Assembly: GCA_021738565.1 (NCBI GenBank)
Contig: JAIPBT010000018.1
Coordinates: 1 to 64,000, forward strand
Source of the DNA: Bacteroidales bacterium
GTDB taxonomy: Bacteria; Bacteroidota; Bacteroidia; Bacteroidales; GCA-2748055
Length of the DNA: 64,000 bases
Direction of reading: 5' to 3'
The notes beneath the pieces are model-generated. The model did no database searches. It saw only the letters and a program-made list of their open reading frames with translations, and was not told the DNA's origin. Positions 1 to 59,188 of this stretch are shown piece after piece (position 1 is the stretch's first letter; each line of letters begins with the position of its first letter). Position numbers and translations under genes: made by a program.

Positions 1-182
1 TGACTGAACCGAGCCATGATCCGCCGGTTGGCGGAACACATATGATTATGATTATAACACTTTATAGGCAAGGAACCTTTGAAAAGCTGTCATGGCGAGC
101 TCCATCTGACAAATTAAAATAAGCAATGACAGATGAAAAGCAGGAGTCCCGATATATTATCGGGATGACTGTTTTGAAGTCA

Positions 183-226
183 AGCATAACGCAGCTATTG
201 ACGTTTTCTTGCAAGCACTAAATAGC
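183..226. repeat. Right end of dispersed palindromic element (type A)
   Basis: This stretch begins AGCATAACGCA and ends GTTTTCTTGCAAGCACTAAATAG. It matches the right end of the complete type A element at 9162-9324, which has the same AGCATAACGCA word and a closely similar GTTTTCTTGCAGCCACTAATTAG end. The matching left end is not visible, so this is a partial copy or one cut by the window edge. Confidence 0.55.
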
Positions 227-8155: not shown

Positions 8156-9163
8156 ATGGCAAATCTAACAACCAAACACATGGGTCTTTCTTTAAAAAAC
8201 CCGATCATGCTGGGAGCAAGTAACCTGGTTGGAAATACCGACAATCTTAAAAAAGCAGAGGATGCTGGCATAGCCGCAATCGTCTACAGGTCTCTTTTTG
8301 AGGAGCAAATTCAGCTCGAGGACTATGACTTAGGTAATCAGCTGGAAGCATACGATGAACGGCATGCAGAAATGATCAACCTGTTTCCGAATCTTGAGCA
8401 TGCTGGTCCCAAGGAGTACCTGTATAATTTAAGAAAAGCCAAGGAAAGTGTCAGCGTTCCCCTGATTGCAAGCATCAATGCAGTATATAAGGAAACCTGG
8501 GTTGATTATGCAAAGCAGATTGAAGAGACAGGTGTGGACGGACTGGAGCTGAACTTTTTTGCGATCCCGCGTGACATTGATAAATCAGGACATGATATCA
8601 TTCAACATCAGGTTGAGACACTCAAAGCAGTTAAGGGATCTGTAAAAATCCCTGTCAGTGTTAAGTTAAGTTCATTTTACACCAATATTCTAAAAACAGT
8701 CTCAGACATGGACCAGGCCGGTGCTGACGGATTTGTATTATTCAACCGTTTATTTGAACCGGATATAGATGTAGAGGCTGAAAAGCACGCTGCTCCCTGG
8801 AATCTCAGCTCTCCCAGTGATCACAGGCTTGTAATCAGGCACATCGGCTTATTGTACGATAACATCAAAGGATCGCTGGTGGCCAACAACGGTATTTACG
8901 AAGGAACCGATGTATTGAAGATGATCCTTGCCGGGGCCAATGCTGTTGAATCGGTTTCAACATTTTATCACAATGGCATCAAGCACATCAGCAATATGCT
9001 CAAAGAGATCGAGGAATGGATGGACCGCAAAGAATACAAATCCCTTGATGATTTCAGGGGAAACCTTTCAAGCAAGTCTATCAACGATCCTTTCGTATAC
9101 AAGCGCGCACAATACATTGATATGATCCTGAAGTCAGAGGAATATTTCAATCCCATTGTTTAA
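8156..9163 (+). CDS. Dihydroorotate dehydrogenase-like FMN-dependent protein
   Basis: The 335-residue protein has the TIM-barrel pattern of class 1 dihydroorotate dehydrogenases: an opening LTTKHMGLSLKNPIMLGAS, an internal VPLIASINAV strand, PVSVKLSSFYTN, a VLFNRL segment and a late ANNGIYEGTDVLKMILAGANAV phosphate-binding part. The usual PyrD asparagine-rich loop (N-x-S-C-P-N type) is replaced here by ELNFFAIPRD, so it is probably not the pyrimidine enzyme itself but a related flavin oxidoreductase. The substrate is unknown. The stop codon abuts a palindromic repeat element. Confidence 0.8.
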   Translation: MANLTTKHMGLSLKNPIMLGASNLVGNTDNLKKAEDAGIAAIVYRSLFEEQIQLEDYDLGNQLEAYDERHAEMINLFPNLEHAGPKEYLYNLRKAKESVSVPLIASINAVYKETWVDYAKQIEETGVDGLELNFFAIPRDIDKSGHDIIQHQVETLKAVKGSVKIPVSVKLSSFYTNILKTVSDMDQAGADGFVLFNRLFEPDIDVEAEKHAAPWNLSSPSDHRLVIRHIGLLYDNIKGSLVANNGIYEGTDVLKMILAGANAVESVSTFYHNGIKHISNMLKEIEEWMDRKEYKSLDDFRGNLSSKSINDPFVYKRAQYIDMILKSEEYFNPIV

Positions 9164-9324
9164 TTAGTGCTTGAAAGAAAACTACGTAATTTAACAAGTG
9201 GCTTGCTAGAAAGCTTCATTTTCAATGCTTGCGAAGTCTGAAAATGAGGAGTTTACTGAGCGTAAATGACGAGTTTTTAGACGAGCATAACGCAAAAAAT
9301 GGAGTTTTCTTGCAGCCACTAATT
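9162..9324. repeat. Palindromic element with inverted ends (type A)
   Basis: The left end AATTAGTGCTTGAAAGAAAACT (9162-9183) and the reverse complement of the right end (9303-9324) agree at 19 of 22 positions. The interior has further self-complementary words, such as CATTTTCA against TGAAAATG. It contains no coding frame and starts at the last bases of the preceding stop codon. This looks like a non-autonomous miniature element or a large bacterial interspersed palindrome. A partial copy lies at 183-226. Confidence 0.65.
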
Positions 9325-9345
9325 AGTGTCTGTCCATAATGTCTG
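9321..9345. repeat. End of a type B palindromic element, joined to type A
   Basis: AATTAGTGTCTGTCCATAATGTC closely matches the right end of the complete type B element at 32217-32370 when that end is read on the minus strand (TTAGTGTCTGTCCATAAAGTC). It shares its TTAG with the right end of the type A element, so the two are fused or nested. Confidence 0.55.
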
Positions 9346-31311: not shown

Positions 31312-32010
31312 TTATTCTATTGGTTGTTTGTTAACCTCATCCTTTTCCACCTCACCATCGATCAACCTGATGATCCTGTGGGCTTGGCGTGCAATGCCCT
31401 CTTCATGGGTAACAAGAATGATGGTATTTCCGGCAGCATGAATATCATCCAGGAGTTTCATGATGTCAAGGGAGGTTTTTGAATCAAGGTTTCCCGTTGG
31501 CTCATCTGCAAGGATTATTGAAGGATTGTTGATAAGCGCCCTGGCAATCGCCACGCGCTGGCGCTGCCCCCCGGAAAGTTCATTCGGCTTGTGGTCCATC
31601 CTGTCGGTTAATTGTACATCCTCAATAACCTTCCCGGCCCTGTCGAGCCTGGTTTGTTTCCCTACACCGGCATAGACCATTGGTAACATCACATTTTCCA
31701 GCGCTGTATACCGGGGAAGAAGATTAAAGGTCTGAAATACAAAACCGATTTCACTGTTGCGTATCTCTGCCAGCTGGTTGTCCTCCATTTTACTGACATC
31801 CGTACCATTGAGCACATAATTGCCTCCGGTAGCAGTATCCAGGCATCCGATCAGATTCATCAATGTAGATTTACCGGATCCCGATGGTCCCATTATGGCA
31901 ACATATTCATTGGGCCGTATGTTGATCGATACCGATCTTAAAGCATTTACAACTATGGTTCCGACGTAATAGTCCTTAACTATATTCTTTAATTCAATGA
32001 TGTATTTCAT
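31312..32010 (-). CDS. ABC transporter ATP-binding protein, MacB/LolD type
   Basis: The 232-residue ATPase has Walker [13 protein letters not shown] near residues 40-51, the Q-loop in [18 protein letters not shown], the signature [15 protein letters not shown] near 140-154, Walker [13 protein letters not shown] near 161-172 and a switch histidine in ILVTHEE. This pattern belongs to the LolD/MacB/FtsE group that works on lipoproteins, efflux or cell-division substrates. No permease gene is adjacent, so its partner must be encoded elsewhere. The upstream side opens on an AT-rich spacer and a palindromic element. Confidence 0.9.
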
Positions 32011-32216
32011 GGTAAAATCAAATTGATCACTAAAGTAGCTATTATAAGGTATATTGCGGTCAAAATTTTTAAATTATTCATATAAAATATTGTATTATGC
32101 ATTAGATTTAAGAATTTCAGCAAAAAAACAAAATAATTGTTCTTAAAAAATGCAAAGTTTTCTGCATATATGAATGAAAAACCTTGTATTTTATAATTAG
32201 TGCATGGCTTCTTTAA
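32011..32216. other. AT-rich spacer between the ABC ATPase and the palindromic element
   Basis: No gene is seen. The stretch is AT-rich, presumably contains the ABC ATPase promoter reading left, and has an extra TTAGTG word at 32197-32202, the same word that begins the nearby palindromic element. Together with that element it makes a gene-free stretch of 366 bases. Confidence 0.5.
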
Positions 32217-32370
32217 CTAGTGTTTGTCAATAAAGTCGAGTGGCTGGATCATAAAGTTCGAGAGCAAAGCGCGCAAAAATCTTAAACCGCAGTATCCGCC
32301 GACGGATGGATTCGAGGATTTAAGATTTTTGCAGCAATGCAGCTATCGGACTTTATGGACAGACACTAAC
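32217..32370. repeat. Complete palindromic element with inverted ends (type B)
   Basis: The left end CTAGTGTTTGTCAATAAAGTC (32217-32237) and the reverse complement of 32349-32369 agree at 18 of 21 positions. An inner perfect 13-bp inverted repeat lies at 32274-32286 and 32319-32331, and a central small hairpin (ATCCG against CGGAT) at 32294-32307. The whole 154 bp can fold into one long interrupted hairpin. It has no coding frame. Partial copies are at 9321-9345 and 58966-59002, and a likely minimal relative is at 50832-50863. It ends a few bases before the recG start codon. Confidence 0.7.
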
Positions 32371-32376
32371 TAAGCA

Positions 32377-34479
32377 ATGGAAAACTTTCTAAAACAGGAC
32401 ATCCAGTTTTTGACCGGTGTTGGGCCGGTAAGGGGGGAAATACTCAGGAAGGAGATCAGCGTTCACACATTTGAAGATCTTTTATATTACTTCCCGTTCA
32501 GGTATATAGATAAAAGCAAATTTTACAAGGTCAGGGAGATCCATCCTGACCTGCCATACATACAAATCAAGGGCAGTATAAAAAAATACAGCAAAATCGG
32601 CAGCGGCCGTGGGAAGAGGATTGTAGCTGCCTTTGGCGATGAAACAGGTACGGTGGAACTGGTCTGGTTCAAAGGGGCCAAATGGATCCCTGAAAACTAT
32701 CCGCCCGGAAAAGAGATCGTCATTTTCGGGAAGCCGTCAGCATACAACCGGAAACTTAATATTGTGCATCCCGAGATAGAGGATCCATCCAAAATAAAGA
32801 AGGTCCGTTCTAATCTTCAGGCCGTATATTCCACAACTGAAAAAATGAAGGATAACTATCTTACTTCAAAAGCAATAAGCAAACTTCAGGCAAATTTACT
32901 GGAGATGCTGCCGGCCAAATTCAGTGAGACCCTTCCCTACTGGTTGCTGCAGGATCTGAAACTGGTTACACTTGACCTGGCGCTGAAGCAGATCCATTTT
33001 CCGGATTCAGTCAGGGATTACAAAAATGCAGAGCTTCGCCTAAAATTTGAAGAGCTCTTTTATATTCAATTAAATATCCTTCAAAAGAAAACAGTCCGCA
33101 AAACTGAATTCAGGGGAAATAAATTCAGCTCGGTCGGAGATTACTTAAATTCCTTTTACAAGAAAAAACTTCCCTTTGAACTCACAGACGCACAAAAAAA
33201 AGTACTCAGGGAGATCCGGGCAGACCTGGGTTCGGGAATACAAATGAACCGGCTTTTGCAGGGGGACGTTGGGAGCGGAAAGACCCTTGTAGCATTGATG
33301 TCAATGTTGATCGCCCTGGACAACAACTACCAGGCATGTCTGATGGCCCCGACTGAAATACTGGCAAACCAGCATTTCATGAGCATCAGCAATATGCTGA
33401 AAGGAATGGATGTAAAAGTGGACCTGCTAACCGGTTCAACAAAAAAGAGGCAGCGGGACAGTATCCATGAAGATCTTGAGAATGGATCCATGCAGATACT
33501 TATAGGCACACATGCATTGCTGGAAGATGTGGTCCAATTCAGTAACCTGGGACTGGTCATTATTGATGAACAACATCGCTTCGGGGTGGCACAGCGGGCC
33601 AGGTTATGGAAAAAAAGTAAAGTTCTGCCTCATGTACTTGTAATGACCGCAACACCCATACCCAGAACCCTTTCAATGACACTTTACGGAGACCTTGATG
33701 TATCAGTGATCGACGAGCTGCCACCGGGAAGGAAACCAATCATTACAAAGCGCTTCCATGACAACCAGCGTCTGAAGGTCTTTGGATTTTTAAAAAAGGA
33801 GATTTCTGTTGGAAGGCAGGTCTATATAGTATATCCGCTGATCAAAGAATCAGAAAAAATGGATTACAAGGACCTGGAAGACGGATTGGAAAGCATTGCA
33901 CGGGCTTTTCCCCCTCCTGATTACCAGATAAGTGTTGTCCATGGTAAAATGAAATCAGAGGAAAAAGAGATTTCCATGCGGCATTTTGTGGAGGGCCGGA
34001 CCAATATTATGGTTTCTACCACTGTAATTGAAGTGGGGGTTGATGTAGCAAATGCGTCGATCATGGTGATTGAAAGTGCCGAAAGATTTGGCCTCTCCCA
34101 GCTCCACCAGTTAAGGGGCCGCGTGGGAAGGGGTGCTGAACAATCCTACTGTATCCTCATGTCGGGGTACAAATTATCGGATGACGGGCGCAAGAGGCTG
34201 GAAACCATGGTATCAACAAATGATGGTTTTGAAATAGCCGAAGTGGACCTGAAATTGCGCGGTCCGGGAGACCTGGAGGGCACACAGCAAAGTGGGATCC
34301 CCTTCAATCTTAAAATTGCCCACCTTGGTAAAGACCAGCAGATCCTGACCCTTGCAAGGGATGTCGCGGATAAGGTTCTTGAAGAGGACCCCAATCTCGG
34401 GATGGAAAAGAATTTCATTTTCAGGAAATACCTTAAAAAAGGCTCGCCTAATCAGGTGAAGTGGGAATATATATCATAA
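32377..34479 (+). CDS. recG: ATP-dependent DNA helicase RecG
   Basis: The 700-residue helicase rescues stalled replication forks by branch migration. The N-terminal wedge/OB domain (about 1-160) includes DIQFLTGVGPVRGEIL. The helicase core starts near 270 with LTDAQKKVLREI and has Walker A LLQGDVGSGKT near 290-300, MAPTEILANQH, DEQHRFGVAQR (DEAH-type box, near 395), VMTATPIPRTL and QLRGRVGRG. A RecG wedge-linked C-terminal part contains GLSQLHQLRGRVGRGAEQS and LKLRGPGDLEGTQQSG. The type B palindromic element ends 6 bp before the ATG, so any promoter must lie in or before the repeat. Confidence 0.95.
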   Translation: MENFLKQDIQFLTGVGPVRGEILRKEISVHTFEDLLYYFPFRYIDKSKFYKVREIHPDLPYIQIKGSIKKYSKIGSGRGKRIVAAFGDETGTVELVWFKGAKWIPENYPPGKEIVIFGKPSAYNRKLNIVHPEIEDPSKIKKVRSNLQAVYSTTEKMKDNYLTSKAISKLQANLLEMLPAKFSETLPYWLLQDLKLVTLDLALKQIHFPDSVRDYKNAELRLKFEELFYIQLNILQKKTVRKTEFRGNKFSSVGDYLNSFYKKKLPFELTDAQKKVLREIRADLGSGIQMNRLLQGDVGSGKTLVALMSMLIALDNNYQACLMAPTEILANQHFMSISNMLKGMDVKVDLLTGSTKKRQRDSIHEDLENGSMQILIGTHALLEDVVQFSNLGLVIIDEQHRFGVAQRARLWKKSKVLPHVLVMTATPIPRTLSMTLYGDLDVSVIDELPPGRKPIITKRFHDNQRLKVFGFLKKEISVGRQVYIVYPLIKESEKMDYKDLEDGLESIARAFPPPDYQISVVHGKMKSEEKEISMRHFVEGRTNIMVSTTVIEVGVDVANASIMVIESAERFGLSQLHQLRGRVGRGAEQSYCILMSGYKLSDDGRKRLETMVSTNDGFEIAEVDLKLRGPGDLEGTQQSGIPFNLKIAHLGKDQQILTLARDVADKVLEEDPNLGMEKNFIFRKYLKKGSPNQVKWEYIS

Positions 34480-58965: not shown

Positions 58966-59002
58966 TAGTGTTTGTCAATAAAGTCGAGTGGCTGAACCAT
59001 AA
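58966..59002. repeat. Left end of a type B palindromic element
   Basis: The first 29 bases, from TAGTGTTTGTCAATAAAG onward, are identical to 32218-32246, the left end of the complete type B element, and the match runs to 37 bases with two differences. The matching right end is not present; the sequence runs instead into short tandem repeats. Confidence 0.75.
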
Positions 59003-59040
59003 CGGTCGGGATCATGAGCTCTTTGCCGCGGCGAATCGGT

Positions 59041-59170
59041 TCGACATTCGACATTCGACATTCCTCCGCGATCCTCCGCGTAACTTATCCCTCGTAGTAT
59101 TTTGCAACTCCTTTGTACCCTGGCCCTCCCAGTCTCCCTTTCTCCCCCTCTCCCAGTCTCCCAGTCCTGC
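59041..59170. repeat. Cluster of short tandem repeats
   Basis: Three different short repeats follow one another. CGACATT occurs three times in tandem (59042-59062), TCCTCCGCG-type 9-10-bp units occur twice (59062-59080) and CCCAGTCTCC-type units recur within 59126-59170. No coding frame is supported. The cluster lies between a palindromic element end and the tail of the next gene. Confidence 0.8.
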
Positions 59171-59188
59171 CCCCTGGCTCCGCCACGT

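Follow-up and report, generated by a model that had tools for sequence, protein, structure and literature searches.

The window, the whole 64,000-nucleotide stretch of Bacteroidales DNA that was analyzed, carries recG at 32377-34479 (+ strand; 700 aa; Pfam RecG_wedge, DEAD, Helicase_C and RecG_dom3_C). Upstream of recG, which is its neighbor and not part of it, lies a 147-bp element of type B, subtype B1 (32220-32366, + strand); its other neighbor is an ABC-transporter-like ATPase gene (31312-32010, - strand), identified by eye from the translation. Reading of the flanks placed a target-site duplication, TAACTA, at 32214-32219 and 32367-32372 (no strand assigned). The terminal inverted repeats (TIRs), read directly and recovered in end-pattern searches, are GTGTTTGTCAATAAAGTC on the left (32220-32237, + strand) and GTGTCTGTCCATAAAGTC on the right (32349-32366, - strand); taken as 20-base ends, TAGTGTTTGTCAATAAAGTC (32218-32237, +) and TAGTGTCTGTCCATAAAGTC (32349-32368, -) are identical at 18 of 20 positions. 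A second, internal TIR-like repeat, GTGGCTGGATCATAAAGTTCGA, was read at 32240-32261 (+ strand) and offers the right end a second possible partner, as the alternative pairings of the MFE and centroid DNA folds illustrate. Further in, GCAAAAATCTTAAA (32273-32286, +) and TTTAAGATTTTTGC (32319-32332, +), both read directly, form the arms of a perfect 14-bp inner stem, giving the stretch the overall shape of an imperfect palindrome. The element holds no ORF of 80 aa or more and lacks a transposase gene.

A preliminary description had recognized the inverted ends and a perfect inner repeat here, and both stand; its 154-bp extent with 21-bp ends (18 matches) gives way to a transposed unit of 147 bp between the TAACTA copies, and its 13-bp inner repeat proved to be 14 bp long. 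The gap of 6 bp it gave before recG shifts with these bounds: the element ends 10 bp, and the duplication 4 bp, before the ATG. Its proposal of one long hairpin is borne out by folding, since the recG-side stretch reached -34 kcal/mol as DNA (z -6.6) and -63.3 kcal/mol as RNA (z -8.2), with 0 of 200 shuffles as good in either case.

The degenerate 20-mer end, allowing up to three mismatches, occurs at four sites in the window against 0.03 expected from shuffles. At 58966-59014 (+ strand) a sequence match and the end-pattern search located a type B element represented by its left part, for which no right end turned up; as had been noted earlier, the 29 bases beginning at 32218 recur exactly at 58966-58994, and identity is 88% over 49 bases. 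The superfamily is also represented by a 153-bp type A element (9167-9319, + strand), which is flanked by TAATTA at 9161-9166 and 9320-9325 and has a core matched by model R1 at 9223-9292 (84.9 bits). It abuts a lone type B end found by the end-pattern search (9326-9343, + strand), so that 9161-9343 is one spot with two insertions. The right part of another type A element, with distal stem GTCCCGATATATTATCGGGAT, occupies 124-218 (+ strand; R1 match 124-191, 33.1 bits; right end at 218 counted by eye). Octamer tandem repeats lie directly after this partial element (224-333, CATCACTG / CAACACTG type) and near the truncated type B copy (59126-59173, CTCCCAGT type). A small palindrome, TCCCGAT..ATCGGGA, forms the distal hairpin in elements of both types (124-191 and loci L109, L156 and L115) and appears elsewhere in stems as well, as though small palindromes were swapped into hairpins.

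We searched the genome that carries the window (G000; 3.98 Mb in 83 contigs) with the element as query and obtained at least 57 matches (40 of 160 candidates scored). At least 32 places, the recG copy included, were near-complete (at least 118 of 167 query bases, 83-100% identity), a count that is a lower bound for the same reason and omits two opposite-strand palindromic hits on copies already counted. The 20-base end pattern, at up to two mismatches, matched 206 sites genome-wide against a single site for a reversed control pattern, and both inverted ends were present by pattern match in 28 of 30 loci fetched from the element search (exceptions, L014 and L018). The earlier label of a complete type B element is consistent with this genome-wide family; the preliminary description had named a lack of other full copies, or copies without inverted ends, as what would speak against it, and the copies found are numerous and nearly all doubly ended.

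From 86 fetched loci plus the window, 57 distinct elements were extracted by their paired ends, and 34 of these had a perfect 6-bp duplication, compared with a mean of 7.3 when left and right flanks were randomly re-paired; as both ends were required for entry, this set is uninformative on how many copies are missing an end. When duplication lengths from 3 to 11 were tried, none besides 6 bp gave more than two matching flanks. The commonest duplications were TATTTA (13), TAATTA (8) and TAAATA (4), and across the 57 elements the target site is TANNTA-like. By a crude ORF call, 54 of the 57 lie outside ORFs; seven of the 54 have no neighbor on one side, and the other 47 showed no clear orientation preference, as in the genome's count relative to neighbors of 18 sense and 13 antisense (no bias). 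Short length, TIRs, target-site duplication, many copies and an autonomous element with like ends (below) were thus all found, and copy number, paired inverted ends and the 6-bp duplication identify the 147-bp element as a MITE, a classification of which we are all but certain.

Among the fetched loci of this genome, elements with different centers have common ends. Three shortened elements (L125:510-596, L108:524 and L040:2711) have lost the inner stems of the core and retain their ends, with 6-bp duplications still present at the last two. Three contigs, one at its end (C1) and two at their start (C38 and C73), stop inside such elements, the assembly having been broken by the repeats.

A transposase gene with like ends, which the preliminary description had suggested looking for, is present in the same genome. 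At G000:C32:3121-4762, type B ends about 1.6 kb apart enclose a 443-aa DDE transposase that matches NCBIfam NF033593 (ISNCY family) at 372.6 bits, above the cut-off of 325, as well as Pfam DDE_Tnp_1. The ends of this intact insertion sequence are GAGTCTGTCAATAGAGT and GAGTTTGTCTATAAAGTC, with TAATTA on both sides, and a search of the genome with the transposase returned one match only, this copy. The MITE resembles it in its ends and duplication type and differs from it in lacking the transposase. Like ends also stand beside related transposases or fragments in five relatives (G002, G007, G024, G031 and G048); in the first of these the transposase gene is split over two frames and the flanking 6-mers differ between the two sides. 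From the like ends and the duplication, mobilization in trans by the ISNCY-type enzyme is plausible, and we somewhat favor it. The insertion sequence may belong to the ISDol1 group of ISNCY. The ends read GAG or GTG and the duplication is 6 bp. ISDol1 and IS1202 are both named as ISNCY subfamilies (PMC8147514); the IS1202 family was ruled out as the mover by its published definition, which gives duplications of 3-5, more than 15 or 0 bp and, for the ISAjo2 type, ends of 5'-TGT/ACA-3' (PMC10132070).

The interior of these elements follows a common plan that is shared across two end types. Type A elements have other ends (GTGCYTGAAAGAAAACT) and the same central plan as type B; twelve of 152-153 bp were collected, and by our own count nine are flanked by a perfect 6-bp repeat. 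Proceeding inward, a long outer stem of variable sequence leads to a junction in which AAGG faces AACG; two further stems follow, both variable and the first the shorter, and beyond a tandem G-A junction the structure is capped by the conserved apical hairpin GTTTAC/GTAAAT. Alignment A1 comprises 20 cores of both types (17 of 28 distinct cores and three others) over a 13-pair structure. Cells with a change on both sides numbered 29, compared with 10.8 after shuffling (0/500 as high). Covariation was 0.366 against 0.161 when shuffled (0/500), and sliding gave no more than 0.182; two of the five measures, pairs with both-side change (158/500) and further pair types (102/500), did not exceed shuffles. 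Within subtypes, two different Watson-Crick pairs occurred at four (B1), five (B2) and five (A) predicted pairs, with B15 left out of the B1 alignment, B24 and B39 of the B2 and L156 of the A alignment before counting.

Alignment A3 extends the comparison to 28 trimmed sequences, namely 27 of 54 non-redundant segments chosen by eye for motif resemblance plus L220. Over its 19 pairs, 123 cells had changed on both sides against 41.6 in shuffles (0/500), and 91.2% of cells were paired against at most 44.3% when slid; again pairs with both-side change (258/500) and further pair types (329/500), two of five measures, were not above shuffles. The apical hairpin is invariant here, its eight pairs hardly varying, because the search pattern fixed it. 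A blind scan of all column pairs in the same alignment ranked the outer, short and long stems at the top, as nested helices whose covariation reached 0.72 (five permutations never exceeded 0.27), and some non-nested pairs also scored (for example 17-83, 0.40). In a clostridial genome (G080), three copies (L320, L327 and L336) have outer stems unrelated in sequence yet self-complementary. We are highly confident that the core is a real, covarying fold of the superfamily.

The recG copy stands at the edge of this family. In its B1 subtype the long stem and apical hairpin are replaced by AAAAATCTTAAA/TTTAAGATTTTT and a GTATCC..GGATTC hairpin, and the element keeps the ends, junction-like CAAAGC/AATGC and the plan of the core. 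Covariance model R2 matches it at 32257-32350 (+ strand) with 20.5 bits, an E of 1.8e-5 for the 301 bases searched with filters off that scales to about 0.2 for 4 Mb and makes the match weak on its own. Near relatives of the same subtype score 36.9 bits (L026) and 38.2 bits (L030); at default filters 4 of 15 B1-type loci match and 11 do not. The copy very probably descends from the structured core, as a diverged and weakly scoring member.

Of 80 relatives, 20 had matches to model R1; the matches fall in 12 of the order's families (f1 and 11 others) and number at least 63 in the window's own genome, at least 63 in G071 and 53 in G077. The apical motif, GGAGTTTAC-N3-6-GTAAATGACTG, was found in at least 119 stretches of the named genome collection. 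The 80 titles listed among them are mostly Bacteroidota (including Prolixibacteraceae, Draconibacterium, Marinilabilia, Dysgonomonas, Cryomorpha, Saprospiraceae, Alistipes and Coprenecus) and also bear labels of Clostridia, Mucispirillum, Oligoflexales and Chlorobiota; labels of metagenome-assembled genomes are as deposited, and mis-binning is possible. As a 20-base pattern also matches by chance, all 109 segments that had 75 bases on each side were fold-tested without further selection. Their median fold z was -6.1 against arm shuffles, 100 of 109 falling below -2, and the helix next to the motif averaged 7.46 pairs against 4.33 with permuted partners (largest 4.76). R2 gave 4 to 70 matches each in eight genomes picked for having a hit, whereas in a phylum draw 30 of 296 genomes had a match, 28 of the 30 in one family (f70), so that the distribution is patchy. 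Among 2.9 million viral contigs, a single stretch contained the apical motif (L314, IMGVR_UViG_3300029905_000198). Three of the broad-set loci (L264, L270 and L273) have tRNA genes at a distance of about 0.5 kb or less from the element.

The two strands of the core are not equivalent. In 107 of the 109 segments the strand bearing the motif folded better than its complement, by a median of 14 kcal/mol, and swapping the apical motif for a neutral loop left it ahead in 97 of 109. In the genome of the window the asymmetry held for 19 of 23 B1, 33 of 34 other type B and 12 of 12 type A elements. Since the sequences are related, p-values for this asymmetry overstate independence, though its direction does not change from phylum to phylum. 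Such asymmetry points to a single-stranded form, and because the difference lies in G-U pairs and G-A junctions, RNA would be likelier than DNA; we judge the chances that the core acts as RNA to be evenly balanced. In the broad set the folding strand was antisense to its neighbors in 38 cases and co-directional in 15 (p 0.002), and the downstream gene was antisense in 53 of 77 (p 0.001). Of the 109 segments, 26 at edges, five far from genes and one inside an ORF were left out of this orientation count. The antisense excess does not fit a simple mRNA-leader role; it would also be expected if strong sense-oriented hairpins were selected against.

Taken together, we consider one composite explanation likely. 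A short non-autonomous DNA element would insert at TANNTA-like sites with a 6-bp duplication, its movement probably supplied in trans by the DDE transposase of the ISNCY-type insertion sequence with like ends. Its interior would have diverged from a structured hairpin core whose stems covary within the genome, within Bacteroidota and in other phyla, and that core most likely acts single-stranded, probably as transcribed RNA, and would be kept by selection on the element. Counting against this account, the window's genome has only one intact ISNCY copy and 25 other genomes examined had no match above the cut-off, so that this transposase family does not account for the wide spread of the core. 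The fold is retained while the sequence, and even the transposon ends, change within one genome and between phyla. Should the core work as RNA, a sizeable structured family would be missing from Rfam 15, raising the questions of which protein recognizes it and by what route it passes between phyla; alignments A1 and A3 give a ready covariance model for testing that role.

A bolder reading reverses the roles of element and core, making the MITE the vehicle and the core the replicating unit: a structured RNA family mobile across several phyla, read by a host or element protein through the tandem G-A junctions and having no fixed mover, would ride between transposon ends, of types A and B here and of other kinds in gut Bacteroidota and Clostridia. 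We regard this reading as possible, with odds clearly below even.

A plainer account, in which the element is an ordinary MITE and nothing more, treats the hairpin as a by-product of the inverted ends and the matched changes in its arms as template switching that corrects palindromes, with no selection on the folded strand. Palindromes are known to self-correct, and small perfect palindromes of the TCCCGAT..ATCGGGA kind enter and leave the stems of both types of element. Correction would, however, erase the unpaired AAGG/AACG junctions and tandem G-A, which are kept across phyla while the stems change, and it is strand-neutral, whereas one strand folds better in nearly every segment of the broad set. 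We find it improbable.

That the stretch is a cis-regulatory element belonging to recG, as leader, attenuator or promoter, is suggested by its position 10 bp before the start codon and its fold of -63 kcal/mol. Against this, dozens of copies lie beside other genes, and across 25 recG loci from relatives, the window's included, a detectable copy was present only at the window's own (none at the other 24; best other E 0.56). Nor were signals above chance found at the element: two sigma-70-like matches compared with 2.0 in shuffles, no occurrence of the Bacteroidota promoter pattern TTG-N17-25-TAnnTTTG even at one mismatch, and no terminator-like site (GC-rich stem plus T run) within 32000-32500; a terminator or promoter role was dropped on these grounds. 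That the element belongs to recG in this way is very unlikely. The suggestion in the preliminary description that it may supply or block recG expression gains no support from these searches and is not contradicted by them.

The composite explanation instead makes any influence on recG a side effect. No element was found upstream of recG in two congeners whose RecG is 81% identical, and the insertion appears lineage-specific as far as can be seen, an exact empty site not being demonstrable because the congeners' upstream DNA is too diverged. In a transcript begun upstream, a highly stable hairpin would stand 10 nt ahead of the recG start codon, and modest damping of recG would be expected; we put a measurable effect at slightly under an even chance. 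For recG, the locus is a naturally occurring insertion with a strong hairpin set in front of a DNA-repair gene. Carriage by phage or plasmid was also considered and dropped, the recG element having no match in either the phage or the plasmid collection; the thought of an integron attC site was likewise set aside.

Least probable is a REPIN-like element whose hairpin a Y1 (RAYT) transposase recognizes as single-stranded DNA: REPIN hairpins with compensatory changes have been described (PMC3116915) and our genome has one Y1_Tnp match (G000:C71:79588-79947, with an internal stop), but TIRs and a 6-bp duplication fit a DDE enzyme, and Y1_Tnp was not found in four many-copy genomes (G071, G082, G083 and G086) and was found in 5 of 12 control genomes without core matches (G030, G034, G044, G050 and G055), so that Y1 mobilization was dropped, as gene presence does not track element copy number.

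Rfam 15 had no match at the window; for seven element loci at E up to 5 it had nothing at the element (two matches elsewhere in L049), and for 16 broad-set loci it returned seven tRNAs only. In the open-access literature, judged by titles and the beginnings of abstracts, no such repeat family was recognized, the relevant items being reviews and REPIN work, and no paper linking MITEs to ISNCY in Bacteroidetes was found. Like the present elements, REPINs are hairpins that occur in many copies, mostly between genes, and carry compensatory changes (PMC3116915); unlike them, the element has TIRs and a target duplication, and conservation is found in its core, not its ends. Similar in size, hairpin form and phylum are palindromic candidate structured RNAs from human-microbiome Bacteroidetes, for example HMP2_4078 (109 bp) and HMP2_4205 (132 bp), compared here by description; they could be the same thing as the core, and the main text presenting them has no words beginning "transpos" or "mobile" (PMC8040213). 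Bacterial MITEs such as Correia/NEMIS, ERIC and the Porphyromonas BrickBuilt elements are short, geneless, mostly intergenic and IS-derived, with TIRs and direct repeats, and their transcripts are predicted to form stable stem-loops (PMC10969869), all of which the present element recalls; that review names Porphyromonas, with ISNCY and words beginning "Bacteroid" absent from it. As a MITE, then, the element is of a known kind, and as far as our searches reach the cross-phylum structured core is undescribed, unless it coincides with the HMP2 candidates. MITE interiors have usually been treated as leftover DNA; what sets this element apart from other bacterial MITEs is that conservation resides in the interior, where a core that covaries across phyla is enclosed by two different types of ends.
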